DNA from: Cupriavidus gilardii
Lineage (GTDB): Bacteria > Pseudomonadota > Gammaproteobacteria > Burkholderiales > Burkholderiaceae
Length of the DNA: 64,000 nucleotides
Reading direction: 5' to 3'
Assembly: GCF_008801915.1 (NCBI RefSeq)
Contig: NZ_VZOV01000006.1
Span: 186,001 to 250,000, forward strand
How positions within the stretch are numbered: the first letter of the stretch is position 1; each line of letters starts with the position of its first letter. The notes beneath the pieces are model-generated. The model ran no database searches and was not told the origin of the DNA. It saw nothing but the letters and a program-made list of their open reading frames with translations. The translations under genes were made by a program, and so were the position numbers. Below are positions 20,922-49,466 of this stretch, piece by piece.

Positions 20922-20950
20922 ATCCGAGTCCTCCAAGCAAAGCTGCCTGG

Positions 20951-20983
20951 ATCATGCGATGACCCGATTAAGCGAAACTAAAG
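20951..20983 (-). promoter_or_regulatory. Shared-architecture promoter of dsbD (site C)
   Basis: On the minus strand: hexamer CTTTAG (20978-20983), 5 bp, hexamer CTTAAT (20967-20972), 10 bp, then CATGAT (20951-20956) as -10. The layout matches three other cargo promoters base for base in spacing. The predicted start of transcription is about 25 bp before the dsbD start codon. Confidence 0.7.
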
Positions 20984-21008
20984 GTCCCCCCAATGGCCCG
21001 TGGGGGAC
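20984..21008 (-). terminator. Hairpin between ccmI and dsbD
   Basis: GTCCCCC (20984-20990) and GGGGGAC (21002-21008) form a 7-bp GC stem right after the ccmI stop; on the minus strand it is followed by a short T-rich stretch. It probably ends or attenuates the ccm transcript immediately upstream of the dsbD promoter element. Confidence 0.5.
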
Positions 21009-21018
21009 GGGGATGCCA

Positions 21019-21900
21019 TCAAGGCTTTGCGCTTGGCTCTGGTGATCGACCATGGGCGAGTTCCGCCTGCTCCGTCCGGGCCCGTTCAATCCCGGCCGCG
21101 ACGACTTTCGCCGCCTCGGAATCGGGGGGCATCATCCCGAGCAGCTTCTCCCAGTGCGCGATGGCCGTTTGATAGTCCCGGCGCTGCACCGCAGCAGCGC
21201 CGGCCAGAGTCAGAGGCAGGGCTGCATTGGGATCGAGCGACAAGGCGCGCTCAAGCAGACGAGTGGGCTCTCCCTCAAAACCGGAGCCACGGATTCTGGA
21301 CAGCGACTCCGCGTACTCCGCCAACGCCTGTGGATCGTTCTGGACCAGCTCATTGGCGTGGGTGAAGGCATTGACGGCTTGCTCATGATCGCCGAAGTAA
21401 CGGTAGGAACGCGCCAGCATGAGCCAGCCTCCAGGATCATCGGGGTGCTGGGCCAGCCGTGCCTGAAGAGAGGCCACCATTGCTTGCACATCGGTTTGCG
21501 TCGTCATGCTCGCGCTGCGAACCTGTGACGGGTCCGTGGCGGCCGGATTTCCCAGGTACGAATAGGTGAGCGCTGTCGCGATCGGCAGCAGAATGGCGAC
21601 AGTGATCGCTGCCCGCTTGCTTCCAGCAGGCGGCCCCAATTTCAACGGAGGAGCAGCAGTTTCATTCAGCGCTCGCCGCTGAAGATCAGATCTTGCATCG
21701 GCCAATTCATTGGCCGACAACGTGCCATTGATGTGGTCTCTCTCCAACTCCGCCCATTGATCGCGCAGTACCGCGACGTTCACGCTTTCAGGGGCAACTT
21801 GGTCGCTCGCACCATGTCCCCCTCGCCAGAGAACGAAAGAAAGCCATATCGAGACGCCTCCCACGAGCACCGACGCCAGAGTCAGGAAAACGATGCTCAT
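21019..21900 (-). CDS. ccmI: Cytochrome c maturation protein CcmI
   Basis: Apocytochrome c chaperone of System I heme attachment. The 293-residue product has an N-terminal membrane helix, a cytoplasmic stretch with leucine-rich and charged helices (LRDQWAELERDHINGTLS), a second membrane helix near 95-115, and a periplasmic TPR domain from about 135 that binds the C-terminus of apocytochromes. It overlaps ccmH by 4 bp and is the last gene of ccmABCDEFGHI, followed by a hairpin. Confidence 0.9.
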   Translation of the reverse strand: MSIVFLTLASVLVGGVSIWLSFVLWRGGHGASDQVAPESVNVAVLRDQWAELERDHINGTLSANELADARSDLQRRALNETAAPPLKLGPPAGSKRAAITVAILLPIATALTYSYLGNPAATDPSQVRSASMTTQTDVQAMVASLQARLAQHPDDPGGWLMLARSYRYFGDHEQAVNAFTHANELVQNDPQALAEYAESLSRIRGSGFEGEPTRLLERALSLDPNAALPLTLAGAAAVQRRDYQTAIAHWEKLLGMMPPDSEAAKVVAAGIERARTEQAELAHGRSPEPSAKP

Positions 21901-22352
21901 GTTTCGTCCAGTACATTGTGTGGCGGAGCCAGCAGCGCGTCCGCGTGTCTGCGCTCCTCTTCATTGAGTGCAGCATGCTTCGGCTTGCGGTTTCGGCTGC
22001 GCAGATTCATGACCAAGACCACAATGCCCAAGGCAAGCACCACGAACGGGCCAAACCAAAGCAACATCGTTGTCGGCTTCAAGGGCGGGCGATAGAGCAC
22101 GAAATCGCCGTATCGCTCGACCATATAAGTCCGGATGTCGTCATCGCTCTTGCCGGCACGGATCTGCTCGCGGATCTGTTGGCGCAAGTCAGCGGCAAGA
22201 TCGGCCTGCGAAGCTGCAATCGATTCATTCTGGCAAACCAGGCAACGTAACTCGGATGCAATGCCCAGCATTCGGTCCTCGGCCGCTTGGTCGCTGGCCC
22301 AGACCGGAGCCGTGAACAGAAAGAAAAACAATGCCACCCGCCAGAGAATCAT
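21897..22352 (-). CDS. ccmH: Cytochrome c maturation protein CcmH
   Basis: Membrane-anchored thiol oxidoreductase that works with CcmG to reduce the apocytochrome heme-binding cysteines and forms a complex with CcmF. The 151-residue product has a cleavable signal (VWAS), the diagnostic LRCLVCQN motif with Cys37 and Cys40, and a C-terminal membrane helix (FGPFVVLALGIVVLVM). The CcmI part is a separate gene here, unlike the fused E. coli CcmH. It overlaps both neighbours by 4 bp. Confidence 0.95.
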   Translation of the reverse strand: MILWRVALFFFLFTAPVWASDQAAEDRMLGIASELRCLVCQNESIAASQADLAADLRQQIREQIRAGKSDDDIRTYMVERYGDFVLYRPPLKPTTMLLWFGPFVVLALGIVVLVMNLRSRNRKPKHAALNEEERRHADALLAPPHNVLDET

Positions 22353-22873
22353 TTCTCAAGCTCCCGCACCAGCGGCAGCAGCTCGCCGCGCATTTCCCCC
22401 GCGTCAATCGCCCCGGTGTGCTTGTAGCGAATGATGCCTGCCTTATCGATCACATAGGTTTCCGGCACGCCGTACACCCCGAAGTCGATGCCGACCGCCC
22501 CATGCGCATCGGAGACCGTCGTTTCAAAGGCATTGCCATTGCGCCGTAGCCAGGCGATGGCGTTCTGGGGCGTGTCCTTGTAGTTCATGCCGACCACCGA
22601 AACAGCATGCCTGCTGGCCAATTCGGTGATGACAGGATGCTCCTCAAGACAGGGCGCGCACCAGGAAGCCCACACGTTCAGTACCCAAACTTTCCCGATC
22701 ATGCTCTCGGATGAGAAGGTCAGGTCCGGAGCTTGCAGTTGCGGAAGGCTGAAGCGCGGCGCGGGCTTGTTGATCAAGGGCGATGGCACCTCGCTGGGCT
22801 TGAGCGTCAGGCCCACTGCGAGGAACGACACCAAGACAAGGAATCCGAGCAGCGGCCATAGGAAACGGTTCAT
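22349..22873 (-). CDS. ccmG: Thioredoxin-like CcmG/DsbE
   Basis: Periplasmic membrane-anchored thioredoxin that receives electrons from DsbD and reduces CcmH or apocytochrome c. The 174-residue product has a signal-anchor helix, WCAPC at 71-75 (Cys72, Cys75), the family acidic residues after the active site (LEEHP), and GVPETYVID around the cis-proline. It is placed between ccmF and ccmH with 4-bp overlaps. The dsbD encoded downstream is the likely electron donor. Confidence 0.95.
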   Translation of the reverse strand: MNRFLWPLLGFLVLVSFLAVGLTLKPSEVPSPLINKPAPRFSLPQLQAPDLTFSSESMIGKVWVLNVWASWCAPCLEEHPVITELASRHAVSVVGMNYKDTPQNAIAWLRRNGNAFETTVSDAHGAVGIDFGVYGVPETYVIDKAGIIRYKHTGAIDAGEMRGELLPLVRELEK

Positions 22874-24831
22874 GATGCGGCCTCGGGCAATGGCGGAGCG
22901 ACGTGTTGACGGCGAGGCTTCAGACGGTATCGACGATCGCTGATGGCCAAGCCACCGCCAAGCGCCATCAGGATGCAGCCGATCCAGATCCAGTCAACGA
23001 ATGGCTTGTGGTAGACACGAACGCTCCAAACACCGTCGCCGAGCGGTTCGCCGAGCGCCGCGTAGACGTGGCGCAGTCCGTTTGCATCGATCGCCACCTC
23101 GGTCATCGGCATCTGCGAGGCCGGGTAATTGCGCTTTTCCGGATGCAGCCGACGCAAGACCTTGCCGTCGCGCGACAGTTCGATATCGCCTATCTGCGCC
23201 ACGTAGTTGGGCCCCCGCGTGCTTCTGACGCCGATCAAAGTGAGGTCGTAGCCGCCGATGCTGACGGACTCGCCCTGGGCCAATCGAACGTCTCGCTCGG
23301 TCTCATACCCACTGACGATGGTCACGCCAGTCACGAATACCGCGATGCCCAGATGCGCCATATGCATCCCAAGCCAACTGCGTGGCTGGGCACGCAACCC
23401 GCCGCGGGTGGCGCGCATTCGGCCGAAGATGCCCGTCACCACCGACACCGCAATCCACGTGGCGAGCATCAAGCCCAACGCCGCAGAAGCTGACCAGTGC
23501 CCCAGCACGAACGGGGCGGTCAGGCCCACCAGGGGTGCAGCAATCATCGGCACGCGCAACTGCCTGAAGATGGCACCGAACTGGGCGGCCTTCCAATTGG
23601 CGGCGGGTCCTACCGCAATCAGAAGCAACGCGGGGATCATCAATGGCACGAACACCGCATTGAAGTATGGCGGCCCCACGGAGAGCTTGCCCAGGCCCAG
23701 CGCATCGACGAGCAGTGGGTACAGCGTACCGAGCGCGACAGCGCCGGCAGTGACGACCAACAGCACATTGTTGACCAGCAGCAAGGACTCCCTGGAGACC
23801 ATGTCGAACCGTCCTCCCATGCCGACCTTAGGGGCTCGCCATGCGAACAAAGCGAGCGACGTGCCCACAATGACCGTCAGCAGAATCAGAATGAATAACC
23901 CGCGTCGCGGATCGGTGGCAAATGCATGCACAGAAGTCAGTACGCCCGAGCGCACCAGAAAGGCACCCAAAAGCGAGCAAGAAAATGCGCCGATCGAGAG
24001 CAGCACCGTCCAGTTCTTGAAACTGGCCCGCTTTTCCGTCACCGCCAAAGAGTGGATCAAGGCGGTGCCCACCAGCCAGGGGATGAACGACGAGTTCTCG
24101 ACCGGGTCCCAAAACCACCAGCCCCCCCAGCCCAACTCGTAGTAGGCCCACCAACTCCCCAAGGCGATTCCGACCGTCAGATTTGCCCAGGCTGCGGTGG
24201 CCCAGGGACGAGACCAGCGTGCCCACGTCGAGTCCAGTTGTCCGGCAAGCAATGCAGCAATCGCGAATGCGAAGGCCACCGAAAATCCGACGTACCCCAT
24301 GTAAAGCAGCGGTGGATGAAAGATCAAGCCGATATCCTGCAGGAGCGGATTCAGATCCCATCCATCTTGCGGTACCGGGAAAAGTCGCTCGAAGGGATTG
24401 GAGGTCAACAGGACGAACAGCAGGAAGCCGGCCGTCACCAGGCCGAGCACGCCCAGAACGCGCGCCACCATGGCATCCGGAAGCTGTTTCGACAACCGGC
24501 TGACCGCATAGGCCCAGCCGGTCTGCATCAGCAGCCAGAGCAGGAGCGAACCCTCATGTCCGCCCCAGACCGCGGCCATTCTGTAGCCCAGCGGGAGCTG
24601 AGAATTGGAGTTTTGAGCGACGTAGGCGACCGAGTAGTCCTTCGCGACAAAGGCCCAGGTGAGCGCGGCAAAACCGACCATCACCAACAGGAATTGAGCG
24701 CGTGCAGCGGGGCGGGCGAACGCGATCCAGGTGAGGTTGGCTCGCGCCGCGCCGGCCAGGGCAAGAACACCTTGAGCGAGTGCCACGAACAAGGCAGCGA
24801 TGAGGGCGAGGTGGCCGATTTCTGGAATCAT
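22870..24831 (-). CDS. ccmF: Cytochrome c heme lyase CcmF
   Basis: Large inner-membrane protein that attaches heme from holo-CcmE to reduced apocytochrome c. The 653-residue product has the length and about 14-15 membrane helices of the family. The tryptophan-rich heme-handling WWD segment GWGGWWFWDPVENSS sits near 240-255, with conserved histidines on flanking loops. It starts 4 bp after ccmE and overlaps ccmG by 4 bp. Confidence 0.96.
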   Translation of the reverse strand: MIPEIGHLALIAALFVALAQGVLALAGAARANLTWIAFARPAARAQFLLVMVGFAALTWAFVAKDYSVAYVAQNSNSQLPLGYRMAAVWGGHEGSLLLWLLMQTGWAYAVSRLSKQLPDAMVARVLGVLGLVTAGFLLFVLLTSNPFERLFPVPQDGWDLNPLLQDIGLIFHPPLLYMGYVGFSVAFAFAIAALLAGQLDSTWARWSRPWATAAWANLTVGIALGSWWAYYELGWGGWWFWDPVENSSFIPWLVGTALIHSLAVTEKRASFKNWTVLLSIGAFSCSLLGAFLVRSGVLTSVHAFATDPRRGLFILILLTVIVGTSLALFAWRAPKVGMGGRFDMVSRESLLLVNNVLLVVTAGAVALGTLYPLLVDALGLGKLSVGPPYFNAVFVPLMIPALLLIAVGPAANWKAAQFGAIFRQLRVPMIAAPLVGLTAPFVLGHWSASAALGLMLATWIAVSVVTGIFGRMRATRGGLRAQPRSWLGMHMAHLGIAVFVTGVTIVSGYETERDVRLAQGESVSIGGYDLTLIGVRSTRGPNYVAQIGDIELSRDGKVLRRLHPEKRNYPASQMPMTEVAIDANGLRHVYAALGEPLGDGVWSVRVYHKPFVDWIWIGCILMALGGGLAISDRRYRLKPRRQHVAPPLPEAAS

Positions 24832-24834
24832 GGG

Positions 24835-25281
24835 TCAAGGCTTCCTTGAAGCCGGCTTCTTCTGGACTTCGTCCAGCGCATGCTGGGCCTCGGGCGGCAT
24901 GTAGTTCTCGTCGTGCTTGGCCAGCACCTCCTCGGCGCGAAAGAGGCCGGCACTGTCCAGCCGTCCTTGAACAACCACCCCTTTTCCTTCACTGAACAGG
25001 TCAGGCAAGATGCCCGAATACGTGACCGGGATTGCTTTGACCGTATCGGTGATGACGAACTGCACGGCAAGCTCACCACGCTGGCGCTTCAGACTACCTC
25101 GTTCCACCATGCCGCCGACTCGAAAGGTGCGCTCCAGTGGTGCCTCCCCGGCACTGACCTGCGAGGGCGTGAAGAAGAACACAAGGTTGCTCTGAAAGGC
25201 ATTGAGCACCAGCGCGGTGGCGATGCCGAGGGCGGATAGCCCGGCGACGATGAGTGCGATGCGTCTATTTCGTGGCTTCAC
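24835..25281 (-). CDS. ccmE: Heme chaperone CcmE
   Basis: Periplasmic membrane-anchored chaperone that binds heme covalently and carries it from CcmABCD to CcmF. The 148-residue product has a signal-anchor helix at 8-30, the OB-fold (FRVGGMVERGS), and the heme-attachment motif LAKHDENYMPPE with His123 and Tyr127. It therefore belongs to the classical His type and not the Cys variant. It overlaps ccmD by 17 bp. Confidence 0.96.
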   Translation of the reverse strand: MKPRNRRIALIVAGLSALGIATALVLNAFQSNLVFFFTPSQVSAGEAPLERTFRVGGMVERGSLKRQRGELAVQFVITDTVKAIPVTYSGILPDLFSEGKGVVVQGRLDSAGLFRAEEVLAKHDENYMPPEAQHALDEVQKKPASRKP

Positions 25282-25456
25282 GCCGCGCCTCCTTGCCCAG
25301 CAATTCCGACTGGATGCGCCATAGCGCTGCTCGGCGCCGGCGCCGGAGCATTCGGCATTCAGTCCAGAGCAACACCACCGTCGTCAGGACGGATCCCCAA
25401 ACGTACACGCCATATCCGCCCATCGCCAGGAACTCACCCACACTGGCCCAGTTCAT
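25265..25456 (-). CDS. ccmD: Small membrane protein CcmD
   Basis: A 63-residue membrane protein that helps release holo-CcmE from the CcmABC complex. It is recognised by position between ccmC and ccmE and by its form: aromatic start MNWASVGEFLAMGGYGVYVW, one membrane helix, and a basic cytoplasmic tail (RMLRRRRR). The start ATG at 25456 overlaps the ccmC stop by 4 bp; the open frame extends further upstream only as shadow of ccmC. Confidence 0.9.
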   Translation of the reverse strand: MNWASVGEFLAMGGYGVYVWGSVLTTVVLLWTECRMLRRRRRAALWRIQSELLGKEARREATK

Positions 25457-26190
25457 CGCTTCACCTCCTCGATGTCCTGCAGCCAGCCGGCGTGATGTTC
25501 GCGTTCCAGGATGATGCAGCGCACACGCGCCAGCGCCGCCGCAGCCGTGTAAGCCCAGGCCGCAAGAACCATGATCAGCATGCCCAACAACATGACCGTC
25601 GCCATGGAGGGCGAACGAGTCAGCGATACCGAGGCGCCCTGGTGCAAGGTGTTCCACCACTGCACGGAGAAATAGATCACAGGGATGTTCACCACGCCGA
25701 CCAGTGCCAGCACGGCGCCTGCCCGGTCGGCACGGCGACGATCTTCGATCGCCGACTGGAGTGCGATGAAACCGATGTACAGAAACAGCAGGACTAGTTC
25801 AGAGGTCAGCCGCGCATCCCAGACCCACCAGGTTCCCCACATCGGCTTTCCCCACAAGGCGCCGGTCCACAGAGAAAGGAAGGTGAACAGTGCACCCGTG
25901 GGGGCCAGCGCCGAGGCCATCATTGCCGACAGGCGGCTGTTGAACACCAGGCCAATGCCGGCCCAGAACGCCATCGCCAGATAGATGACCATGGACATCC
26001 ATGAAACCGGCACGTGCAGGAAGATGATGCGATACCCCTCTCCCTGCTGGGCGTCGGTGGGTGCCAAGAAGAACCCCACATAGACGCCCGCGAGCGACAG
26101 CGCCGCGGCGGTCACGCCGAGCCAAGGGACGAGCTTCCCCGCGAGTGGGTAGAACGCCTTGGGAGATGAAAACTTGAACCAGTTGACCAT
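25453..26190 (-). CDS. ccmC: Heme handling protein CcmC
   Basis: Inner-membrane protein that loads heme onto CcmE. The 245-residue product has six membrane helices and the WWD motif WGTWWVWDARLTSELVL at about 120-136, flanked by heme-ligand histidines (IIFLHVPVSWMSM). It is of normal length. It lies 12 bp after ccmB and overlaps ccmD by 4 bp. Confidence 0.96.
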   Translation of the reverse strand: MVNWFKFSSPKAFYPLAGKLVPWLGVTAAALSLAGVYVGFFLAPTDAQQGEGYRIIFLHVPVSWMSMVIYLAMAFWAGIGLVFNSRLSAMMASALAPTGALFTFLSLWTGALWGKPMWGTWWVWDARLTSELVLLFLYIGFIALQSAIEDRRRADRAGAVLALVGVVNIPVIYFSVQWWNTLHQGASVSLTRSPSMATVMLLGMLIMVLAAWAYTAAAALARVRCIILEREHHAGWLQDIEEVKR

Positions 26191-26202
26191 ACGCTTCGCT
26201 CC

Positions 26203-26889
26203 TCAGTACTCCAGTGCGATGCGCAGCGATGCACTCGCTGCGAATGGCGTGAAGAACGCCGCCAAGACGAACACGGCGGCGAGCAAAGAGAGGTTGGCCG
26301 ACGCTCCCTGACCGATGATCGACGCATCGACCGCGCCGGCACCGAAGATCAGCACCGGGATGTAGAGCGGCAGCACCAGCACAGCAACGAGGACACCCCC
26401 TGCGCGTACGCCCAGCGTCAGCCCCGCGCCGACGGCGCCGATGAGGCTGAGCACCGGCGTACCGATAACGAGCGATGCGGTCAAAATCCAGAGGGACAAG
26501 GCAGGCAGGTCGAACTGCAATGCCAGCGCGGGCGCAAGCAAGGCCAAGGGCAAACCGGACAACAGCCAATGCGCCGCGATCTTGCCGACGACCAACATGG
26601 CCAACGGCGCTGGCGACAGCATCATCTGCTCCAGCGTGCCATCGGCGTGATCCTGCTCGAACAGGCGATTGAGCGAAAGCATGCTGGCCAGCAACGCCGA
26701 TACCCACAGGACGCCCGGAGCGATCCGTCGGAGCATTTCGCGCTCGGGGCCGATACCCAATGGAAACAGACTGACGACCACGACAAAGAAGCAAAGAGGT
26801 ATCAGCGCGTCTGACCTTCGGAGCAAGGCGAGCTTCAAGTCCCGGCGCATCACGACAAATACCGGATTGGCAACGAGGGGCCGGCTCAT
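26203..26889 (-). CDS. ccmB: Heme exporter membrane subunit CcmB
   Basis: Membrane subunit of the CcmAB ABC transporter, which uses ATP to release holo-CcmE from CcmC. The 228-residue product has six hydrophobic segments and the family pattern FVVVVSLFPLGIGPE and LNRLFEQDHADGTLEQMMLSP near 35-90. It overlaps ccmA by 4 bp. Confidence 0.95.
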   Translation of the reverse strand: MSRPLVANPVFVVMRRDLKLALLRRSDALIPLCFFVVVVSLFPLGIGPEREMLRRIAPGVLWVSALLASMLSLNRLFEQDHADGTLEQMMLSPAPLAMLVVGKIAAHWLLSGLPLALLAPALALQFDLPALSLWILTASLVIGTPVLSLIGAVGAGLTLGVRAGGVLVAVLVLPLYIPVLIFGAGAVDASIIGQGASANLSLLAAVFVLAAFFTPFAASASLRIALEY

Positions 26890-27509
26890 GCCCCCATCCG
26901 GACGGTCTGAGAAGTTTTCAAGGCCAGCTCCTGGTGACTCGTCAGAACGACCATGCCGCCGCGTGACTGGTGCCGATGGATCAGTTCACCAAGCCATCGC
27001 GCACCGAATTGGTCCAGCGCTGTGGAGGGCTCATCGAGAATCCACAACTTCCTCCTGTAGAGGAGCAATCGAGCCAGGCTTGCACGACGCTTTTGGCCTT
27101 GTGACAACATCCGGAACGGCAAGTGCCTGTGCTCGGCCAAGCCAACTTCGTCCAACGCTGATTCCACGCATTCCGTGGTGACCGGCTCACCAGCGATGGC
27201 GGCCGCGGCAAGCAGGTTGTCCAAGGCATTCAGGTCTTCTTTGAGTCCAATGCCATGGCCGTTGTAAACCAGTTCGCGTTGGTATTCACTCCACTGGTTG
27301 CGCAGCGGCTTTCCTTTCCACAAGACTCTGCCAGCAGCAGGCGTAGCGAACCCTGCAAGCGTTCGCAATAGCGTGGTCTTCCCGCTGCCGTTCTCGCCGT
27401 GCACCGACAGGCACTCGCCCGGCACGATCCGGAAAGTCAAATGGTCAAACAGGCGGCGCTCCCCGCGAACGCCCGCGAGATCGAGAGCTTCAAGCATGGG
27501 CCGGGTCAT
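26886..27509 (-). CDS. ccmA: Cytochrome c biogenesis ATP-binding protein CcmA
   Basis: ATPase subunit of the CcmAB complex on the cytoplasmic face. The 207-residue product has Walker A GENGSGKTT at about 39-47, the ABC signature LSQGQKRRASLARLLL, Walker B LWILDEPSTALD, and the switch His in LTSHQEL. It is the first gene of the ccm operon and is divergent from the response regulator, 168 bp away, with a predicted regulated promoter between. Confidence 0.96.
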   Translation of the reverse strand: MTRPMLEALDLAGVRGERRLFDHLTFRIVPGECLSVHGENGSGKTTLLRTLAGFATPAAGRVLWKGKPLRNQWSEYQRELVYNGHGIGLKEDLNALDNLLAAAAIAGEPVTTECVESALDEVGLAEHRHLPFRMLSQGQKRRASLARLLLYRRKLWILDEPSTALDQFGARWLGELIHRHQSRGGMVVLTSHQELALKTSQTVRMGA

Positions 27510-27564
27510 AGTTCATGCACATGGGCATCCCTGGAAGGTGCGCCCTCAAGGGGCAATCTTCAAA

Positions 27565-27597
27565 ATCATGTCTTCTCCCGATTAACTGAGAATTAGC
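27565..27597 (-). promoter_or_regulatory. Shared-architecture promoter of the ccm operon (site A)
   Basis: On the minus strand: GCTAAT (27592-27597), 5 bp, GTTAAT (27581-27586), 10 bp, CATGAT (27565-27570) as -10. It points at ccmA, about 55 bp upstream of its start, and lies beside the response regulator gene that may bind it. The first hexamer is the least like the others. Confidence 0.7.
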
Positions 27598-27677
27598 GGG
27601 AACTTGCGTCCTACCTTGCTGTCATTTCTGGCCTAACATGAGCGTGTCAAACAAGCAAATTCAGGTTGGTAGGCGCC

Positions 27678-28346
27678 ATGCGAATACTGTTGGTGGAAGA
27701 CGACAAACTGATCGGACGGGGGATCGTGGCCGGTCTGCACAAGCACGGCATCGCGGTGCATCACGTCGGCACCGCAGAAGAAGCCGAAGCCACGCATGCG
27801 GAAGACACCTTCCATGCCCTGGTGCTCGATCTCGGGCTGCCTGACCGGGACGGCATGGAGTTGCTGGCCAGCATGCGGGCCGTCGAACCTCAATTGCCCG
27901 TCCTGATCCTCACGGCGCGGGACGCCATCGAACACAGGCTCAAAGGGCTGCATGAAGGTGCCGACGACTACATGATCAAACCGTTCGACCTGCGTGAACT
28001 CGCAGCCCGGTTGCATGCGCTGGTCAGACGCACGCAAGGCCGTGCGGCCCAGGTCATCTCGGCCGGTCCCCTGCGGCTGGAGCCGGAGAGCGGGCTGGCC
28101 TGGTTCCAGGGCGAGCCCGTCTCCTTGTCGCGCCGCGAGGTCGATCTGCTGGCCCATCTCGCCAACGCCGATGGCCGGTGGGTCCCGCCCGACATGCTCA
28201 ACGAGCGCTTGTACGGCCTCGGGGAAGAGATCGGCAGCAACGCGCTGAATGTGCATATCCACAACATCCGCCGCAAGCTCGGCGCCGAAGCCATCGAGAC
28301 GGTCCGTGGGCTCGGCTATCGGCTGGGCTGGAGGCTTGCATCATGA
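27678..28346 (+). CDS. OmpR-family response regulator (QseB/PmrA type)
   Basis: A 222-residue DNA-binding response regulator. The receiver domain (1-115) has the acidic pocket EDD at 7-9, the phospho-acceptor Asp51 (LVLDLGLPDRDG), and Lys in MIKPFDLRELAARL. A winged HTH (about 130-220) follows, with HIHNIRRKLG typical of the QseB/PmrA/TctD subgroup. ATG 27678 was preferred to an upstream TTG. It overlaps the sensor kinase gene by 4 bp. Paired TTAA hexamers upstream of four cargo operons fit this regulator class, so it is their prime candidate activator. Confidence 0.93.
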   Translation: MRILLVEDDKLIGRGIVAGLHKHGIAVHHVGTAEEAEATHAEDTFHALVLDLGLPDRDGMELLASMRAVEPQLPVLILTARDAIEHRLKGLHEGADDYMIKPFDLRELAARLHALVRRTQGRAAQVISAGPLRLEPESGLAWFQGEPVSLSRREVDLLAHLANADGRWVPPDMLNERLYGLGEEIGSNALNVHIHNIRRKLGAEAIETVRGLGYRLGWRLAS

Positions 28347-29728: not shown

Positions 29729-29881
29729 GTTCGGACCCTGCCAGGGATAGCGCGGTCACAGCCAATGGACGCAGGCGTGCTGATGTGGTTCGCCTTCGTT
29801 CGATCCAGCGCCTGACTTCGGAGTAGGCATCCGCCAGGGATCAGGCGCATGGCGGTGCTCGTGCGGCTGCCGCTCTTGCGA

Positions 29882-31480: not shown

Positions 31481-31504
31481 AGCCTGAGCATTCCAGTGCT
31501 CCTT

Positions 31505-33763: not shown

Positions 33764-34841
33764 CCGTTCCAACCCCAAGCAGTTTTCCGCCCACGACCTT
33801 CCCGTAGTAGCTTTGCTCACCTTCGTGGTATTTCTCCAGCGCCTCAGCCACGGTTCCGGTCTGGCGTGTGTCCTTGGGGCGTTCGTGGCTGTTGATGAAT
33901 GCCGCCACGTCCCAGGCCTCCTGTTCTGTCAGACTGTATGGCTTTCCAAGCGGCATGTTCGCCCAGATAAAGCCCGCTGCAGTATCGATGCGGGCCATGC
34001 CGGCGCCCCAGTTGTACGACTCGGGTCCCCAAAGCGGGGGAAATCTCATCTTGCCGTTTTCCTCCCGCGTGCCCTGTCCATCAGGACCATGGCACAGTGC
34101 GCAATTTTGTTGATAGACCGCCAGACCTCGGCCCACGTCGTAGTCGTCCTTTGGTTTCGGCACCTTGGGATAGAGCGCTCCGCGCGGCTTGTTGCCGGCG
34201 GGCAGCCCATCGGCCATCCAGGCCATATAGGTCATGAGATCGCGGTACACATCGCTGCCAGCGGGCGGCGGTTTCCCGGAGGACGACGCCTGGGCGTTCA
34301 TCGAATAGGTGAAACAGCCCATGATCCGGTCTTCGAGCGTGCTGATGGTCCCGGTCTTGCTGCGAAAAGCGGGGTAGGACGCATAGGCCGCCCACATCGG
34401 TGCGGCATTCTCTCGCCGTCCCGAGTCGAGGTGGCAGTTCGCGCAGGCCAGCGAATTGCCCACGTGGTCTTTGACCATGGCGCCAGTGTCGGTGAAGATT
34501 TTCATTCCTCGCCGGATGGCATCGCCATAGGGTCCTTTCGGAATGTCATCCTCCGCAGGCGGGAGGTAGTAGCCGTCCGCACCGACGGGCATACCGGGCG
34601 GAGACGCCTTGGCGTCTTTTGCGTAGGCCTTGCGAGCAGCTTCCATATCTGCTCTCGAATAGGGCGCGGCCGAAGGAATCGTGACCGTTTTGCCGCTGAT
34701 CGCGCTGTACAGATACCCCATCACGCCGCTCTCGTAGACGCCGTAACCTGCCGAAAACAGCAGGAGACCCAGCGCCGCAGCATAACCGGCACGCCGGAGT
34801 GTCCCCGTGTGCGCAGAGCGGCGATCACCGTTGTTCGTCAT
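33744..34841 (-). CDS. TsdA-like diheme cytochrome c (thiosulfate dehydrogenase-like)
   Basis: A 365-residue exported protein with an N-terminal membrane anchor and two c-type heme motifs, CANCH and CALCH. The segment after heme 1 (CANCHLDSG ... LEDRIMGCFTYSMN) resembles TsdA thiosulfate dehydrogenase, whose heme 1 has a Cys axial ligand; the Cys in MGCF, 39 residues after the heme His, is the candidate. Heme 2 is followed by ANMPLG, a candidate Met ligand. ATG 34841 has a strong AAGGAGG site. TsdA oxidises thiosulfate to tetrathionate or runs in reverse. It is co-operonic with a terminal oxidase. Confidence 0.78.
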   Translation of the reverse strand: MTNNGDRRSAHTGTLRRAGYAAALGLLLFSAGYGVYESGVMGYLYSAISGKTVTIPSAAPYSRADMEAARKAYAKDAKASPPGMPVGADGYYLPPAEDDIPKGPYGDAIRRGMKIFTDTGAMVKDHVGNSLACANCHLDSGRRENAAPMWAAYASYPAFRSKTGTISTLEDRIMGCFTYSMNAQASSSGKPPPAGSDVYRDLMTYMAWMADGLPAGNKPRGALYPKVPKPKDDYDVGRGLAVYQQNCALCHGPDGQGTREENGKMRFPPLWGPESYNWGAGMARIDTAAGFIWANMPLGKPYSLTEQEAWDVAAFINSHERPKDTRQTGTVAEALEKYHEGEQSYYGKVVGGKLLGVGTDAKSGP

Positions 34842-35643
34842 GATTGCCTCCTTTGCTGCCCGGACGCAAAGATCCGAAATACTGAGCCACATCGCGCATG
34901 TCTTGGTCCGACATGCGCGACGCGATGTCATCCATCAAGGATTGCGGCGAATTGTGGCGATGGCCGCCTTTCCATGAGACCAACTGGTGGAAGATGTACT
35001 CGGGCTGCTGACCCGCCAGCGCAGGGAAATGGCCGCCGACACCCTCACCCTGCTGGCCATGACAGGTCACGCACGCCGGGATATCCTTTTTCCAGTCGCC
35101 CGTTCGGCTCAGTGCCTCTCCACGCGCCGCGTCTCCGCCCAGATCGACGGGCGGCCCGGCAACGTGCGGCAGCGCAGCGTAATAGGCCGAGACTTGCCCG
35201 ATCTCCTCGGCGCTCATTGCACTGGCCACGTACCGCATGGACTCGTTGGGGCGGCTTCCGGTAGCGAAGTCGTGGAGTTGCTTCGCGATGTAGGCTTCGG
35301 ACAGGCCGGCCAGCGCGGGCGTCAGCCCCGCGCCAGCACCGTGGTCGCCGTGACATGACGCGCAGGCCCAGACGATGTCGTTGCCCTGAAAGACGAGCAC
35401 CGGCGCGTCATCGGGAACTGCGGGCGCCTGCTGCTTCGGCGCAACGGTCCCGCCAATCGCCGCCCCGCGATTCGGCGCCAGGTCGGCGATGTAGCTCAAA
35501 GCGCCCCAGATCGCCAGCGCCAGGAAGATGGCCAGCACAAACAAGGGAATGGGACGCGATTGCTCCCAGGGGTCGAATGTCGGGTCTACGTCTTGAACAC
35601 GACGCCCCTTGCCGCTCAGCTCGGATTTCATCTCGCCCCTCAT
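34825..35643 (-). CDS. Membrane-anchored diheme cytochrome c (CcoP/c4-like)
   Basis: A 272-residue protein with one membrane helix (PLFVLAIFLALAIWGALSYI, about 33-52) and two class I heme domains with CASCHG near 93 and CVTCHG near 190. Each domain has a downstream Met (SAMSAEE; ASRMSDQD) as likely sixth ligand. The double-domain form resembles cytochrome c4 or CcoP. No classical CcoP is encoded nearby, so this is the best candidate for the electron-entry subunit of the oxidase. It overlaps ccoO by 4 bp and the TsdA-like gene by 17 bp. Confidence 0.85.
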   Translation of the reverse strand: MRGEMKSELSGKGRRVQDVDPTFDPWEQSRPIPLFVLAIFLALAIWGALSYIADLAPNRGAAIGGTVAPKQQAPAVPDDAPVLVFQGNDIVWACASCHGDHGAGAGLTPALAGLSEAYIAKQLHDFATGSRPNESMRYVASAMSAEEIGQVSAYYAALPHVAGPPVDLGGDAARGEALSRTGDWKKDIPACVTCHGQQGEGVGGHFPALAGQQPEYIFHQLVSWKGGHRHNSPQSLMDDIASRMSDQDMRDVAQYFGSLRPGSKGGNHDEQR

Positions 35644-36281
35644 TGACGCGGGCCCTTCTGAGTTTTCGGATCGTAGCCACGATCACGCAATGTCGCCTCT
35701 TTGGCGCTGACGGGGTAGGAACGGTCCAGGCTCAACAGGTACGCGACCAGGTCGAGCGCCTCCTGTCGGGCCACCACCACTTTCCCGTCCGCGGGACGGT
35801 ACTCCTGCGGCAACTTGACCACGACCTCGCCGGGCGCGGCCTTCTCCTTGACCTCGAAGAGGAAGGGGTACGAAGGCATGATGCTCCAGTCGAAGATGGC
35901 CCTGGGCTGGTACAGGTGGGTCAATTGCCAGTCCCGGCTCGGCAGGCGCACCCCGACATTCAGCAAATCGGGGCCGGTGCGCATCGTCCCGAGCAGTTGG
36001 GGAGCGTCGTAGGCGTAGTCGCCCGGCGTGGACGGCCTTCCCCAGCCCCGGGCCTGATCCGCCAGCGTCTGGCCACTCGAACGAGGCTGCTGGCTGTGAC
36101 AGTAGACACAGCCATTGGCCACGTACTGCGCACGGCCTCTTAGCTGTTCGATCGTGTAGTTCTGCAACTGCGCAGGTGCCTGGACCGTACGGACCTGCAG
36201 GCCGGGGAGCACCACGAGCATGACGGTCGCGAACACCAAGATTCCGACAGCGCCGACGAACAATGGAATCAGCCGGTTCAT
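35640..36281 (-). CDS. ccoO: cbb3-type cytochrome c oxidase subunit II
   Basis: Membrane-anchored monoheme cytochrome c subunit of a cbb3 oxidase. The 213-residue product has an N-terminal membrane helix (about 5-27), a single CVYCH heme site (YVANGCVYCHSQQ), the family region WGRPSTPGDYAYDAPQLLGTMRTGPDLLNVG, and a Met ligand in IFDWSIMPSYPFL. The length is normal for CcoO. It overlaps ccoN by 4 bp. Confidence 0.94.
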   Translation of the reverse strand: MNRLIPLFVGAVGILVFATVMLVVLPGLQVRTVQAPAQLQNYTIEQLRGRAQYVANGCVYCHSQQPRSSGQTLADQARGWGRPSTPGDYAYDAPQLLGTMRTGPDLLNVGVRLPSRDWQLTHLYQPRAIFDWSIMPSYPFLFEVKEKAAPGEVVVKLPQEYRPADGKVVVARQEALDLVAYLLSLDRSYPVSAKEATLRDRGYDPKTQKGPRQ

Positions 36282-37834
36282 GCGTCACCTCGCCGTTTCG
36301 ACCAGAGTAGGGCCATCGCATGGAAGGCAAAGACGAAGTGTCCCAGCGTCATCATGCCGCCGCCCACCGATCGACCTTCGAGATACGGCACGATGTTGCG
36401 GGTGATGTCAGCGAAACTGGTCTGTGGATCGAGCAGCGACATGCCTTGCAGGAAACCGCCGATGGTCAATGACAGGAAATAGATCAGAAAACCCAGGACC
36501 GTCAGCCAATAGTGGATGGCGATGAGTCGCGGACAGGGCCAGTTCTTGCCCGTCAGGTAGGGCAAGAGATAGTAGAAGGCGCCGAACAGCACGATGGAGA
36601 CGAATGCGTAAGCTCCCAGGTGCGCATGCCCCACCGTGTAGTGCGTGAAGTGGGTGATCGAGTTGATGGCCCGTACAGCCTCCAGCGATCCCTGGAAGGA
36701 TGCGGCCGTGTACATCAATGCGCCCGTGGACACGAAGCGCAGCGCCATGGACTCCTTGAACGCCCAGAAATTCTGCGCGACCGTCACGTGCTGATTGATC
36801 GCCACCGCGATGACAGGAATGAACATCATGACGCTGTGCACGATCGACAGCGTGACCACCCACGTCGGCACGGGCCCACCGATCAGGTGATGAATACCCA
36901 CCTGGCTGTAGAACAAGGCAAGGCCCCAGAAGCCCAGCAGCGAAACGCTATACGAATAGATCGGCTTGCCGATGATCTTGGGAATCAGGTAATAGGCAGC
37001 ACCCAGCCCCAGCGGTGTCAGCCAGAGGCCAAGCACGTTATGCGCGAACCACCAGTTGGTGGTGGCTTGCTGCACGCCTGAATGCAGGCCCGGGATATTC
37101 GCGATGAAGAACAGAATGGGGAACCATGCCAGTCCCGCGAGGTAGTACCAGCCGCTGACGTAGATGTGGTGAACGTTGCGTTTTCGGGTCGTCGCGATGG
37201 CGGACCATGCGATGAAGAAGCCGCCGAGGGCCAGGACGATGTCGATCTGCCATGGGATTTCGAGCCACTCCAGGCCGTCGCTCCATCCATTGGCAATGGC
37301 AATGGCACCGGCCGCCACGCCGAGGGCCCACAGCACCGCGCCCACCATCGCCATTGCGGGCCTTCGCAGGGGCGTATGAAACATGCGAGGGATGATCCAG
37401 AGCGCGACCGCTATGCCCCCTGTGGACAGCCAGCCGTACGCGACCAGATTCAGATGGACGGTGCGCGCGCGCCCGAAGGTGGTGAACGCCTGACTCGCCA
37501 GCCAGTCGGGCCAGTGCAACTTCAGCGAGGCGATCATCCCGAACAGCGAGCCAACGATCAGGAACAGGAAGGAAGCGATGGACAGGACCAGTACGACGTT
37601 CCGACCCGGGGCGTCGACGCCGGCACGCAAGGCGTCGAATCGATGCTCGGCCGCCCCTTCATCGAATGAAGATGGATCATCCGGGGAGCCGGCCTCGCCC
37701 TCCAGAAATATGGTCGAAGCCTCCTTCTTTCCCGCATGGATCTGGCGCGTCACGATGGACCAGATCAACGCGCCCAGAGCCGCCAGCGAGACGATAAAGC
37801 TCAGAGCAAGGAGAAACCCTAGGCTTTCATTCAT
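36278..37834 (-). CDS. ccoN: cbb3-type cytochrome c oxidase subunit I
   Basis: Catalytic heme-copper oxidase subunit reducing O2 at high affinity. The 518-residue product has the twelve-helix core with conserved His ligands (TVHLNLVAYGWLS; VGIHHL; HFTHYTVGHAHLGAYAF). ATG 37834 was chosen after GGAG. Unlike typical CcoN, about 85 residues precede the core: a short hydrophobic helix (GFLLALSFIVSLAALGALIW) and an acidic, Ser-rich linker. That helix recalls the small assembly protein CcoS, which is otherwise missing here. It is first gene of the operon ccoN-ccoO-cytc-tsdA-ccoI-lnt. Confidence 0.94.
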   Translation of the reverse strand: MNESLGFLLALSFIVSLAALGALIWSIVTRQIHAGKKEASTIFLEGEAGSPDDPSSFDEGAAEHRFDALRAGVDAPGRNVVLVLSIASFLFLIVGSLFGMIASLKLHWPDWLASQAFTTFGRARTVHLNLVAYGWLSTGGIAVALWIIPRMFHTPLRRPAMAMVGAVLWALGVAAGAIAIANGWSDGLEWLEIPWQIDIVLALGGFFIAWSAIATTRKRNVHHIYVSGWYYLAGLAWFPILFFIANIPGLHSGVQQATTNWWFAHNVLGLWLTPLGLGAAYYLIPKIIGKPIYSYSVSLLGFWGLALFYSQVGIHHLIGGPVPTWVVTLSIVHSVMMFIPVIAVAINQHVTVAQNFWAFKESMALRFVSTGALMYTAASFQGSLEAVRAINSITHFTHYTVGHAHLGAYAFVSIVLFGAFYYLLPYLTGKNWPCPRLIAIHYWLTVLGFLIYFLSLTIGGFLQGMSLLDPQTSFADITRNIVPYLEGRSVGGGMMTLGHFVFAFHAMALLWSKRRGDA

Positions 37835-38352
37835 GGGCGCTCCAGAAATGGCGCGCAACCATCCGAATTGGTTCCGATGCCAACCACTGGTGTTGGCGAT
37901 AGTGTTCCATCAGGGCTTGCCTCAGCATTGTTTTTATGAATGTCGCATGTGAATCACGGGAATGATGGTCAGCCTCGATTAAGCGAAAGTTAAGAGTGTT
38001 TTTCGAGGTGCCCCGCGCTCTTTGACCGTGGACTGTCTGGATGGCGAGATCCAAATACAGTCGGCCCGGATATTCGAATCGTCGTGACGCGAAGGTCTCG
38101 GCCGCCTCGCGGCAGACACCGGCGCTGCGCCTGGGGTCAGCATCGGCAGGGGGCGGGACGATCGCTTGTTCGCCTAGTGCCAGGAAATCACAGTGGACGC
38201 ACGTATCCGTTATAACCACCCGCATCCCGAAGGACAGTCTCCCCTGGCAGGGATAGCCGCTGTTGAGGCTCGGAGGGCCGAATGCCGCTCCTCCTTTCGC
38301 CCGCACTATGAGCGTCGGTTTCCCATGTCCCGGCGATGACGCATGCGGCGGC
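37835..38352. other. 518-bp non-coding region upstream of ccoN
   Basis: The region lies between the ccoN start and the sqr stop. It contains the predicted regulated promoter of the oxidase operon (37962-37994) and a markedly AT-richer stretch around 37915-38000. An open frame on the minus strand crosses it but shows no family similarity and contains the promoter, so I do not call it a gene. No FNR-type TTGAT-N4-ATCAA site was found. The rest (38010-38352) shows nothing I can name. Confidence 0.6.
37962..37994 (-). promoter_or_regulatory. Shared-architecture promoter of the cbb3 operon (site B)
   Basis: On the minus strand: CTTAAC (37989-37994), 5 bp, CTTAAT (37978-37983), 10 bp, CATCAT (37962-37967) as -10. 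The hexamer pair is the closest of the four to the YTTAAK-N5-YTTAAK box known for PmrA. It lies 128 bp upstream of the ccoN start. Confidence 0.72.
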
Positions 38353-40023
38353 TCACCCGTCCGAGAGGACAGGATGCGCGAGCCATTCGCGGCCCTTGAG
38401 CATGCCGTCCCAATAGACCGGCGGCAGGATGCGTTCCTTCAGCAGCCACGCCAGCGATGACGGCCGCTTGCCGTCGATGAACCATTTCGGAAACGAAGGC
38501 GCCAGCTTGCCGCCGTAGGCAAATTCCGCCAGCACGATCTTGCCGCGCTCGACAGTGAGCGGGCAGGAGCCATAGCCGTCATAGCTGGCCAGGCGCGTGG
38601 ACCCGCTCCGGGCGGCGAGCAGGTTGTGCGCGACCACCGGCGCCTGCTTGCGTGCGGCCGCAGCAGTCTTGGCATTGGTGGTGTTGGTGCAGTCGCCGAG
38701 TGCGAAGACGTTGGCGTACTTCTTGTGGCGCAGGCTCGACGGGTCCACGTCCACCCAGCCCGCAGCGTCCGCCAGCGGGCTCACTCGGATGAAGTCCGGC
38801 GCCTTCTGTGGCGGCACGGCGTGCAGCAGGTCAAATGGACGGGTGACGCGCTCCTTGGTGCCGTCGGCGTTCGTGCGGATGAAGGTGGCTTCATGCGCTG
38901 CGCCATCGACGGCCACGAGCTGGTTGCTGAATTGCAGATCGATGCCATAAGCCTTCACGTACTCCATGAGCGCGGGCACGTAGTCCGGCACGCCGAAGAG
39001 CACGCCTCCCGCGTTGCAGAACTCGATGTGGATGTTCTTGAGCACGCCCTGCCGCTTCCAGTGATCGGCCGAGAGGTACATCGCCTTCTGCGGCGCACCC
39101 GCGCATTTGATGGGCATGGGCGGCTGCGTGAACAGGGCCTGGCCGCTCTTGAGGTTCTGCACCAGTTCCCAGGTGTAGGGCGCGAGGTCGTAGCGGTAGT
39201 TGGAGGTGACGCCGTTGCGGCCCAGTGTTTCAGGTAGGCCCTCGATGCCGTTCCAGTCGAGTTTCAGGCCCGGGCAGACCACGAGCTGCTGGTACTTGAC
39301 GACGCGGCAGCCATCGAGCACGAGGGCGTCGCGCTCGGGCTCGAACGCGGCGACGGCCATCTTGATCCACTTGACGCCGCGCGGAAGCACGCTCGCCATC
39401 GTGCGCGCCGTGTGCGCAGGCGGAAAGATGCCCGCGCCCACCATCGTCCACCCCGGCTGGTAGTAGTGCACATCCGCCGGGTCGATGACGGCGATGTCCG
39501 CGTCCGGCTTGCGCGCGAGCAGGCTGGACGCCACCGCGATGCCCGCCGCGCCCGCGCCGACGATCACGATGTCATGCGTGGCGTCCACGACTTCGGTGGG
39601 TGTGCGCCCGCCGTTGGCGATGCGCCGGGCCACGCCGGACAGGTCGTAGCCGGCACCGCGCGCGGCTTCGAGGATGGAGGCCAACGGCTGACGCTGCGCC
39701 TGGCTCAGCGCCCACAGCGTGGCCGAGCGCGTGCCGGTGCGGCAGTAGGCGAACACCGGGCCGGGCAGTTGCGTCATCAGCGTCCCGAAGGCCTGGGCCT
39801 GCTGGTCGGTCACTTTGCCGGACTCGACGGGCAGGTAGGTCGCCGCCATACCCAGTGACTGGGCGGCCTGCTCGATTTCGCTGAAGCCGGGCTGATCGCC
39901 CGCTTCTCCATCGGGCCGATTGCAGATCACCGAGCGGTAGCCAGCCTCGGCGATGGCCTGCAGGTCGGTGGCAGCGATCTGGCCGCTGACGGCCAGTCCC
40001 TGGTCCAAGGCTTTGATGTCCAT
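38353..40023 (-). CDS. sqr: DUF442 phosphatase/rhodanese-like domain fused to sulfide:quinone oxidoreductase
   Basis: A 556-residue two-domain protein. Residues 1-140 are a DUF442/TIGR01244 domain with a PTP-like loop CRTGTRS (Cys94). Residues 150-556 are an SQR-type flavoprotein with FAD motif GAGAAG at 156-161, paired cysteines in VCPGL and KCAGAP, and ALGDCTNT. SQR oxidises sulfide to persulfide and reduces quinone on the inner membrane. It lies 48 bp after the persulfide dioxygenase gene, giving the usual two-step sulfide oxidation pair. Fusions of this type are known in proteobacteria. Confidence 0.9.
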   Translation of the reverse strand: MDIKALDQGLAVSGQIAATDLQAIAEAGYRSVICNRPDGEAGDQPGFSEIEQAAQSLGMAATYLPVESGKVTDQQAQAFGTLMTQLPGPVFAYCRTGTRSATLWALSQAQRQPLASILEAARGAGYDLSGVARRIANGGRTPTEVVDATHDIVIVGAGAAGIAVASSLLARKPDADIAVIDPADVHYYQPGWTMVGAGIFPPAHTARTMASVLPRGVKWIKMAVAAFEPERDALVLDGCRVVKYQQLVVCPGLKLDWNGIEGLPETLGRNGVTSNYRYDLAPYTWELVQNLKSGQALFTQPPMPIKCAGAPQKAMYLSADHWKRQGVLKNIHIEFCNAGGVLFGVPDYVPALMEYVKAYGIDLQFSNQLVAVDGAAHEATFIRTNADGTKERVTRPFDLLHAVPPQKAPDFIRVSPLADAAGWVDVDPSSLRHKKYANVFALGDCTNTTNAKTAAAARKQAPVVAHNLLAARSGSTRLASYDGYGSCPLTVERGKIVLAEFAYGGKLAPSFPKWFIDGKRPSSLAWLLKERILPPVYWDGMLKGREWLAHPVLSDG

Positions 40024-40071
40024 GAGGGTCTCCTGCCCGGAAATTGTCCTTTCAGCCGGTCGGTGCCGCTC

Positions 40072-40950
40072 TCAGAGGGCATCGATGGGAATCTTGAGGT
40101 AGTGGACGCCGTTGGATTCGGCAGGCGGCAACTCGCCGGCCCGCATGTTCACCTGCACGGAGGGCAGCAGAAGCACGGGCATCGCCAGCGTGGCGTCGCG
40201 CTGCTCGCGCGTGGCCGCGAAGTCATCCTCGCTGATGCCGTCACGCACATGGATGTTGTGCGCACGCTCCTCGGCCACGGTGGTCTTCCATTGAAGCTCG
40301 CGCCCCCCGGGGCGGTAGTCGTGGCACATGTAGAGCACGGTCTCCGGCGGCAGCGACAGCACGCGGCCGATCGAGCGGAACAGTGTGCGCGCGTCGCCAC
40401 CCGGAAAGTCGCAACGCGCCGTGCCATAGTCGGGCATGAACAGCGTGTCGCCCACGAAGGCTGCGGCAGGCGCTTCAGGTGTGGCGTTGTCCTGGACCAG
40501 ATAGGTCATGCAAGCGGGCGTATGGCCGGGGGTATGCATGGCCCGCACCTGCAGCGTGCCGAGCATGAAGGTCTCGCCGTCGTCGAACAGACGATCAAAC
40601 TGCCGGCCGTCACGCGCGAAGGCCGGCTCGGCGTTGAAGAGCTGGCCGAACACCTGCTGTACGGTACGGATGTTCGCCCCAATGCCGGTTCGGCCGCCCA
40701 GGCACGAATGGAGATACGGCGCGGCGCTCAGGTGATCTGCGTGCACATGCGTCTCCAGAATCCACTGGACGCTCGCCCCCAGTTCCCGCACGCGCTCGGC
40801 CATGCGGTCCGCGCCGGCGCGCGAGGTGCGGCCGGATTTAGGATCGTAGCCGAGCACGCTGTCGATGATGGCGCACTGACCGCTTTTCGTGTCCAGCACG
40901 ATGTAGCTGAAGGTGCTGGTGTCCTCGTCAAAGAAGGGTTCGATCTTCAC
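40072..40950 (-). CDS. Persulfide dioxygenase, metallo-beta-lactamase fold (Blh/ETHE1-like)
   Basis: Oxidises glutathione persulfide to sulfite with O2, working after SQR. From a GTG at 40950 the product has 292 residues, starts KIEPFFDEDTSTFSYIVLD as homologues do, and has the metal motif THVHADHLS (His68, His70, Asp72, His73), PGHTPACMTYL and GDTLFMPDYGTARCDFPGG. The open frame reaches a GTG at 41031, but that would coincide with the predicted transcription start, so I favour 40950, which GAGG precedes by 10 bp. It is closest to the Blh type linked to BigR. Confidence 0.88.
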   Translation of the reverse strand: MKIEPFFDEDTSTFSYIVLDTKSGQCAIIDSVLGYDPKSGRTSRAGADRMAERVRELGASVQWILETHVHADHLSAAPYLHSCLGGRTGIGANIRTVQQVFGQLFNAEPAFARDGRQFDRLFDDGETFMLGTLQVRAMHTPGHTPACMTYLVQDNATPEAPAAAFVGDTLFMPDYGTARCDFPGGDARTLFRSIGRVLSLPPETVLYMCHDYRPGGRELQWKTTVAEERAHNIHVRDGISEDDFAATREQRDATLAMPVLLLPSVQVNMRAGELPPAESNGVHYLKIPIDAL

Positions 40951-41038
40951 GGTGTCTTTGCCTCGCTGAATGTATGACCCGTCTGTTGTCGCCCAAGCTC
41001 CCTTGATCGGATGTTTGTGGGTCGTTCTCACATGCCAG

Positions 41039-41071
41039 ATGGTGTCCGGGTCGAATTAACTCAAAATTAAA
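41039..41071 (-). promoter_or_regulatory. Shared-architecture promoter of persulfide dioxygenase-sqr (site D)
   Basis: On the minus strand: TTTAAT (41066-41071), 5 bp, GTTAAT (41055-41060), 10 bp, CACCAT (41039-41044). Spacing is identical to the other three sites, with the -10 the weakest match. It would give the dioxygenase and SQR genes a promoter separate from the upstream repressor-rhodanese pair. Confidence 0.6.
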
Positions 41072-48512: not shown

Positions 48513-48542
48513 GTGGGTGTCCTGATGACGGGCCGATCGGGA

Positions 48543-48617
48543 GGCCTTTTGGCCTTTTCGAGGTAGGGCCTTTCCCCTTGCACCCCGTTCCCTTGCCATT
48601 TCGGCCCTCTGGCCTTT
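48543..48617. repeat. GGCCTTT repeats upstream of the relaxase, possible oriT
   Basis: GGCCTTT occurs four times (48543, 48551, 48567 and 48611) in a pyrimidine-rich stretch just upstream of traI. This lies in the 315-bp gap between traI and the toxin-antitoxin genes, the rest of which holds the antitoxin promoter. oriT is often next to the relaxase gene, so this is a candidate relaxase or accessory-factor binding region. There is no direct evidence of a nick site. Confidence 0.4.
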
Positions 48618-48794: not shown

Positions 48795-48827
48795 GAATCC
48801 TGTCTCAAACCTGCCTGGGAGATCACC

Positions 48828-49454: not shown

Positions 49455-49466
49455 AGCGAGATCGCC

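Follow-up and report, generated by a model that had tools for sequence, protein, structure and literature searches.

The stretch of DNA analysed here, referred to as the window, comprises 64,000 nucleotides from Cupriavidus gilardii (contig NZ_VZOV01000006.1, positions 186,001 to 250,000 of the forward strand), and all coordinates below are counted from its first letter. It carries an integrative and conjugative element (ICE) whose cargo includes a two-component system and four operons, for periplasmic thiol redox, cytochrome maturation, an oxidase and sulfide oxidation, which may be controlled together. Each operon is preceded by a promoter in which a pair of half-sites (referred to as the box) stands at a fixed distance from the -10. 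The regulatory features are:

20951..20983, minus strand: box and -10 of the dsbD operon; half-sites CTTTAG (20978-20983) and CTTAAT (20967-20972), -10 CATGAT (20951-20956)
27565..27597, minus strand: box and -10 of the ccm operon; half-sites GCTAAT (27592-27597) and GTTAAT (27581-27586), -10 CATGAT (27565-27570)
37962..37994, minus strand: box and -10 of the ccoN operon; half-sites CTTAAC (37989-37994) and CTTAAT (37978-37983), -10 CATCAT (37962-37967)
41039..41071, minus strand: box and -10 of the persulfide dioxygenase-SQR operon; half-sites TTTAAT (41066-41071) and GTTAAT (41055-41060), -10 CACCAT (41039-41044)
27678..28346, plus strand: OmpR-family response regulator, PmrA/QseB-like, 222 aa, the proposed activator
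28343..29728, plus strand: histidine kinase of QseC/PmrB-like type, 461 aa; Cys81, invariant in the group, lies between two predicted membrane helices

An earlier reading of the sequence alone had described these promoters as sharing an identical 33-bp architecture, and when the letters were read again the hexamer pairs, the 5-bp and 10-bp gaps and the -10s were all as claimed. Each 33-mer lies directly upstream of one minus-strand operon and consists of a first half-site, 5 bp, a second half-site, 10 bp and a weak -10, the half-sites being of TTAAT type with an 11-bp period. It is this layout that is identical, not the letters: half-site 2 is BTTAAT (XTTAAT) in all four sites, whereas half-site 1 is degenerate, with zero to two departures. 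The PmrA box is given as CTTAAG-N5-XTTAAT with head-to-tail half-sites in an extract of its published description (PMC3973317), and the four sites likewise have two direct half-sites 5 bp apart, the second being XTTAAT, with a 10-bp gap to the -10. The proposed PmrA-type layout is thus supported by the published box and by comparative spacing data from relatives; the fixed 10-bp gap is a rule drawn from those relatives in this analysis, not from a paper.

All 22 promoters that were hand-picked by their boxes have xAnnnT at exactly 10 bp, while any other spacing between 2 and 30 bp finds this motif in at most one of the four window promoters, three of the ten cassette promoters and one of the eight deeper promoters. 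A fixed-pattern scan of 97 loci, counted on both strands so that palindromic boxes count twice, placed xAnnnT at 10 bp in 19 of 34 boxes, compared with 5 of 34 for the next best spacing. Candidates for a -35 at 15-19 bp match TTGACA at no more than two of six positions for dsbD and ccoN, three for persulfide dioxygenase and four for ccmA, and a good -35 at this distance is absent for three of the four promoters. Ordinary sigma-70 promoters were also considered and rejected, as a consensus scan of 27400-41200, which covers three of the four sites, gave none at the sites. The arrangement resembles class II activation of the PhoB type, in which 11-bp repeats stand in place of the -35 at a fixed spacing to the -10, but the half-site letters here are TTAAT and not those of the pho box. 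A 10-bp gap has reportedly been assigned to PhoB; the gap here rests on the comparative data.

The pattern YTTAATN5YTTAAT, with up to two mismatches, has four matches in the window versus 0.70 expected, and none of 100 shuffles reached four; these matches are three of the four sites and one at 42011, the ccmA site being missed. A matrix was trained on other genomes, using ten sites from eight loci outside the cassette group (three of the ten, from L150, had been pre-found with an xAnnnT filter). With this matrix the four sites occupy ranks 1 to 4 in the window (27.1, 24.4, 23.0 and 21.5 bits), followed by a fifth match at 13.5, so that, as anticipated from the sequence alone, they are top-ranked and no equal-scoring match occurs elsewhere in the window. 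Among 30 first-order Markov nulls, no best score exceeded 21.1 and no fourth-best score exceeded 12.1. Across the 5.79-Mb genome, BTTAATN10CAYSAT has four matches, which are the four sites, and the reversed-pattern control has none; since this pattern was derived from the four sites, only the absence of further matches counts as evidence. BTTAATN5BTTAAT with up to one mismatch has 15 matches genome-wide (eight for its reversed-pattern control), three of them within the cargo span (binomial P 1.8e-5). The shuffles, the Markov nulls, the genome-wide pattern counts and the binomial test together rule out a chance origin of the four sites.

The regulator at 27678 had been called OmpR-family of the QseB/PmrA type, and this assignment holds at the level of type: its closest solved relatives are PmrA/BasR (8jo2, 4s04), while its NCBIfam scores stay below both equivalog cut-offs (221.5 bits vs 330 for PmrA, 210.6 vs 345 for QseB), and we therefore call it PmrA/QseB-like, an orthologue of neither. 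It keeps H193, H195, N188, R198 and R210 of PmrA, of which H193 and H195 are the proposed base-specificity residues (PMC3973317, in part). With PmrA (BasR) and its box in Salmonella and Klebsiella, as far as the excerpted account goes, it has in common the half-site layout, the receiver and DNA-binding domains and these two histidines, and it differs in its score under the PmrA cut-off, its cargo, its kinase sensor and its location on an ICE. Similarly, kinase and regulator together resemble QseC/QseB, both falling under the equivalog cut-offs (kinase 192.2 bits vs 475 for QseC). A further difference from QseBC is a cysteine of the group kinases, placed in their predicted periplasmic part: 63 loci were entered in a kinase survey and 59 gave a kinase frame, and G-[IVL]-[AG]-C was found there in all 15 group kinases (L016-L024, L114-L119) and in none of the 44 other rows, two of which are uninformative (L041 has a gap at this place, L097 apparently a wrong frame). 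No relative of the kinase was found in viral contigs.

The 15 group regulators fall together on a single branch (support 100/98) of a tree with 50 rows; the regulator of L025, 53% identical, falls outside this branch and its kinase lacks the Cys. By tblastn, tlpA was found in 12 of the 15 group neighbourhoods and dsbD in 10, the contig of L021 being too short to judge. SoxA/TsdA-like cytochromes occur as partners in L150 and L153, the latter also with a multicopper oxidase nearby. The commonest partner in the group is a dsbD-tlpA operon, with sulfur-cytochrome genes too in two loci. A box followed by 10 bp and xAnnnT lies within 400 bp of the regulator gene in 13 of the 15 members, each having one directed away from that gene. 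A strict form of the box, run on nine other genomes, gave 15 matches, and 10 of these fall at the regulator or the cassette, namely three in G498 (all of its matches), two in Pseudorhodoferax soli and one each in Achromobacter veterisilvae, G510, G150, G162 and G155.

Two observations concern promoters near the group regulators. L150, from another genome, holds a second set of several boxes: three within about 8 kb surround the group-type regulator, near the two SoxA/TsdA-like cytochromes and tlpA and upstream of an NrfD-like gene. A likely -10 of the regulator's own promoter (about 27580-27640 in the window) reads TAACAT at 36 bp from the box in the window, L017 and L022, the same TAACAT at 46 bp in L018 and 47 bp in L021, TAACAA at 57 bp in L019 and TAAGAT at 60 bp in L020. 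These distances lie mostly near helical steps, and autoregulation is possible.

The sites also recur, as the sequence-only reading would have it, in related elements or cassettes of A. veterisilvae, P. soli and Acidovorax sp. MR-S7. The composite pattern BTTAATN10CAYSAT, run on 12 genomes, gave 23 matches in eight of them, and 15 of the 23 lie at cassette promoters (four each in the genome studied and in P. kullae, three each in A. veterisilvae and P. soli, one in Acidovorax); the other eight comprise four in Zhongshania, two in a Candidatus Halomonas metagenome-assembled genome and one each in P. soli and G679. Some orthologous sites are missed by this pattern, the persulfide dioxygenase site of P. 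soli having ATTAAT and the dsbD site of Zhongshania CTTAAC. Orthologues of the dsbD site were found in L017, L018, L019, L020 and L021, and those of the persulfide dioxygenase site in L018 and L135/L145. Identity was computed over 24 ungapped box-anchored pairs. Of these, 21 are dsbD pairs, for which a second dsbD-like copy in L018 was also used, and the persulfide dioxygenase site of L135 was left out. It reaches 0.81 in half-site 1, 0.86 in the spacer, 0.91 in half-site 2, 0.54 in the 10-bp gap and 0.86 in the -10, as against 0.27 over 60 bp upstream and 0.41 downstream. As indels depress ungapped identity, the upstream DNA was re-aligned with gaps, and the seven dsbD promoter copies then show 0.49 versus 0.45 when shuffled; box and -10 thus persist there although the DNA upstream has drifted almost to shuffled level. 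These alignments thus show a clear footprint on box and -10 at dsbD and a suggestive one at ccoN, while the ccmA and persulfide dioxygenase pairs are uninformative.

Taking together the boxes, their spacing, conservation, near-exclusivity and linkage, we propose, with a probability of roughly 85%, that the ICE carries a self-contained regulon, in which its own regulator-kinase pair jointly activates the four promoters through the box. The kinase (28343-29728) would sense a signal and phosphorylate the regulator (27678-28346), which would then bind the two half-sites as a head-to-tail dimer; the box would replace the -35 element, and the bound regulator would recruit sigma-70 polymerase to the weak -10 exactly 10 bp downstream. 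In this order of events dsbD-tlpA(-dsbG), ccmABCDEFGHI, the ccoN-like oxidase operon and persulfide dioxygenase-SQR would be switched on jointly. The four targets fit together, since cytochrome maturation draws its reductant from DsbD, heme c is required by the oxidase, and SQR passes electrons to respiration. The ICE may have extended the dsbD-tlpA promoter module of the group to further operons, by which the modules would stay wired to the regulator under cargo reshuffling.

Several observations weigh against this proposal, which is drawn from sequence. Half-site 1 of dsbD (CTTTAG) is the poorest of the set, with two departures, and three PmrA contact residues are replaced in the regulator, K153 by R, T187 by S and R171 by P. 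L149, a group member, has no box within 17 kb, and the gene behind the box in L151 encodes an AcrB-type pump. The strict form has five of its 15 matches away from regulator and cassette (two in G632, one each in A. veterisilvae, Acidovorax and P. soli), compared with four in the reversed control, and the four off-cassette matches of the composite pattern in Zhongshania compare with five in its reversed control. Gapped upstream identity is still 0.85 in the single ccmA pair (shuffled 0.47) and the single persulfide dioxygenase pair (shuffled 0.43), which therefore carry little information on selection, and is 0.57 versus 0.43 in the ccoN pair. In a control set of 50 other relatives, 15 also have a box at a 10-bp gap when the threshold is loose, so that this spacing is a property of a wider regulator group rather than of this group alone. 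Nine of the 50 have TGTAAG-N5-YGTAAG, 10 bp and then a TAnnnT -10 (the scan required the -10 core); this type lies upstream of the regulator in L040, L044-L049, L057 and L066, with the same layout and different half-site letters.

As for the input, the periplasmic thiol or sulfur state (or that of copper) is most likely what the kinase reads with Cys81, a residue that suggests thiol/sulfur species or Cu(I) as the signal. That copper or silver is the input instead, with the rest of the scheme unchanged, is possible though unlikely. Cys can bind Cu(I), the cargo includes a heavy-metal P-type ATPase, a multicopper oxidase lies near the regulator in L153, and a fold search of the kinase sensor part gave only weak matches, among them the CusS sensor domain; against this, one Cys alone makes a poor metal site, and the partners in the group are dsbD (10/15), tlpA (12/15) and, in L150 and L153, the SoxA/TsdA-like cytochromes. 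A comparable system is HprSR of E. coli, described as a two-component oxidant reader that controls a periplasmic repair system; there, in the part of the account drawn on here, two periplasmic Met residues sense and the Cys lies in the membrane, whereas the ICE kinase has one Cys in its predicted periplasmic part (PMC10151825).

The boxes could also be real PmrA/QseB-type promoters served mainly by a resident, chromosomal OmpR-family paralogue (G000:C1:570760), so that the ICE would plug into the host network. This paralogue has a perfect box, CTTAATCAACGCTTAAT (G000:C1:570666; L001, L099), about 70-80 bp upstream, followed by 10 bp and CATCCT, and it could bind the same sites and provide a second input by cross-talk, a point that tells against a fully self-contained regulon. 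Its identity to the ICE regulator is no more than 40% and it is placed elsewhere in the regulator tree, one of the two PmrA specificity histidines is F in it by alignment, and the boxes adjoin the ICE-type regulator in those 13 group members; we regard it as an improbable main regulator. Repression of constitutive promoters by the regulator would agree with the position of the box at -35, but the -10s are weak, three of the four promoters have no good -35 of their own, and the exact 10-bp spacing in many promoters is as expected for sigma contact, all of which makes repression very improbable. That one promoter segment was merely copied during assembly of the element, with no working regulon, finds some encouragement in dsbD and ccoN, which have in common both the 5-bp spacer TTTCG and a CG following the box, as copying would produce, and in ccmA and persulfide dioxygenase pairs too close to reveal selection. 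It hardly agrees with a dsbD box and -10 kept beside drifted DNA or with ccmA and persulfide dioxygenase boxes of the same layout and different letters, and is likewise very improbable.

On the activation reading, if the ICE regulon exists as proposed, a mobile element carries a whole respiratory programme together with the master switch for it, and the site of that switch stays in front of the modules in related elements whose cargo is shuffled. The box-plus-10 rule would offer a cheap prediction of targets for PmrA/QseB-like regulators, and the invariant Cys of the kinase would make the signal directly testable. A limited search of open-licence papers found no account of this regulon. A broader idea, to which we give somewhat less than even odds, is that a kinase-Cys two-component family, undescribed in that limited literature, reads periplasmic sulfur or thiol state, and that an ICE has packaged it along with a promoter module that was copied. 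One pre-wired respiratory regulon, made up of thiol relay, cytochrome maturation, oxidase and sulfide oxidation, would in this way move between bacteria.

The element and its cargo comprise the following:

10346..10421, plus strand: tRNA-Gly, left end of the ICE
10644..12581, plus strand: tyrosine integrase of the ICE
17471..18244, minus strand: DsbG/DsbC-like thioredoxin-fold protein with a CPYC motif, third gene of the dsbD operon, named by eye
18247..19083, minus strand: tlpA-like thioredoxin, second in the dsbD operon, with an LGT-like membrane part
19083..20936, minus strand: dsbD, the listed reading frame opening at TTG 20936
21019..27509, minus strand: ccm operon, ccmA, B, C, D, E, F, G, H and I (ccmD by eye, about 25265-25456)
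29882..37858, minus strand: ccoN operon, headed by the ccoN-like oxidase subunit, then a fixO-like subunit, diheme cytochrome, SoxA/TsdA-like cytochrome, heavy-metal P-type ATPase and lnt
38353..40971, minus strand: persulfide dioxygenase (40072-40971) and a phosphatase-like/SQR fusion (38353-40023)
46620..50027, minus strand: MobH/TraI relaxase of a PFGI-1-class ICE

That the cargo is borne by an ICE, as had been supposed, is confirmed by a PFGI-1-class relaxase (TIGR03760, 292.4 against a cut-off of 161.4), integration at a tRNA-Gly gene beside a tyrosine integrase, and the same element elsewhere with another flank. P. kullae carries it with 99.97% and 99.995% identity over the two pieces compared. 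To the left of 10346, the piece compared gives no match over 300 bp, and the left neighbour of the element is therefore a different one in P. kullae. A. veterisilvae has part of the transfer region in common, at 98% identity. The right end of the ICE was not found, the contig stopping 2.9 kb past the window. The relaxase, the tRNA-Gly target and the tyrosine integrase are as in ICEs of the PFGI-1/ICEclc type, and the cargo differs from theirs in its sulfide oxidation, oxidase, cytochrome maturation and periplasmic thiol genes. Five plasmid records match the regulator at E 1e-50, all below 60% identity, and the same-genus genomes G523 and G679 have no match at E 1e-65, as is expected for a mobile element. 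In P. soli (L018) the ccoN-type promoter precedes lnt, and the ccoN cluster was not found in that locus; in A. veterisilvae (L017) both boxes flank a ccm remnant, reduced to fragments of ccmA and ccmI, and have thus outlasted most of the ccm genes. Judging from these two loci, the cargo is shuffled among related elements.

By eye, a likelier start of dsbD is a TTG near 20921 after GGAGGA. Two identical tandem tRNA-Gly genes occupy 10213-10421, and the ICE starts at the second. The ccoN-like oxidase (34825-37858) is divergent (242.5 vs a cut-off of 583), no ccoP or ccoQ is named among its genes, and at E 1e-100 relatives of it occur in 5 of the other 368 genomes of the class sample. The ArsR-like and rhodanese genes (41138-41999) have no ranked site before them in the matrix scan of the window (best 13.5). 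The match at 42011 was rejected as a PmrA box; the matrix reaches at best 13.5 there, compared with at least 21.5 at the four sites, and it adjoins a palindrome, TTAGCATAAGCTAA (42028-42041), beside an ArsR-type gene (41688-42041 region). This gene, which we take to be SqrR/BigR-like, has Cys35 and Cys102 and scores below the BigR cut-off (70.8 vs 155), and it may possibly provide a second, persulfide-sensing input beside the same cargo.

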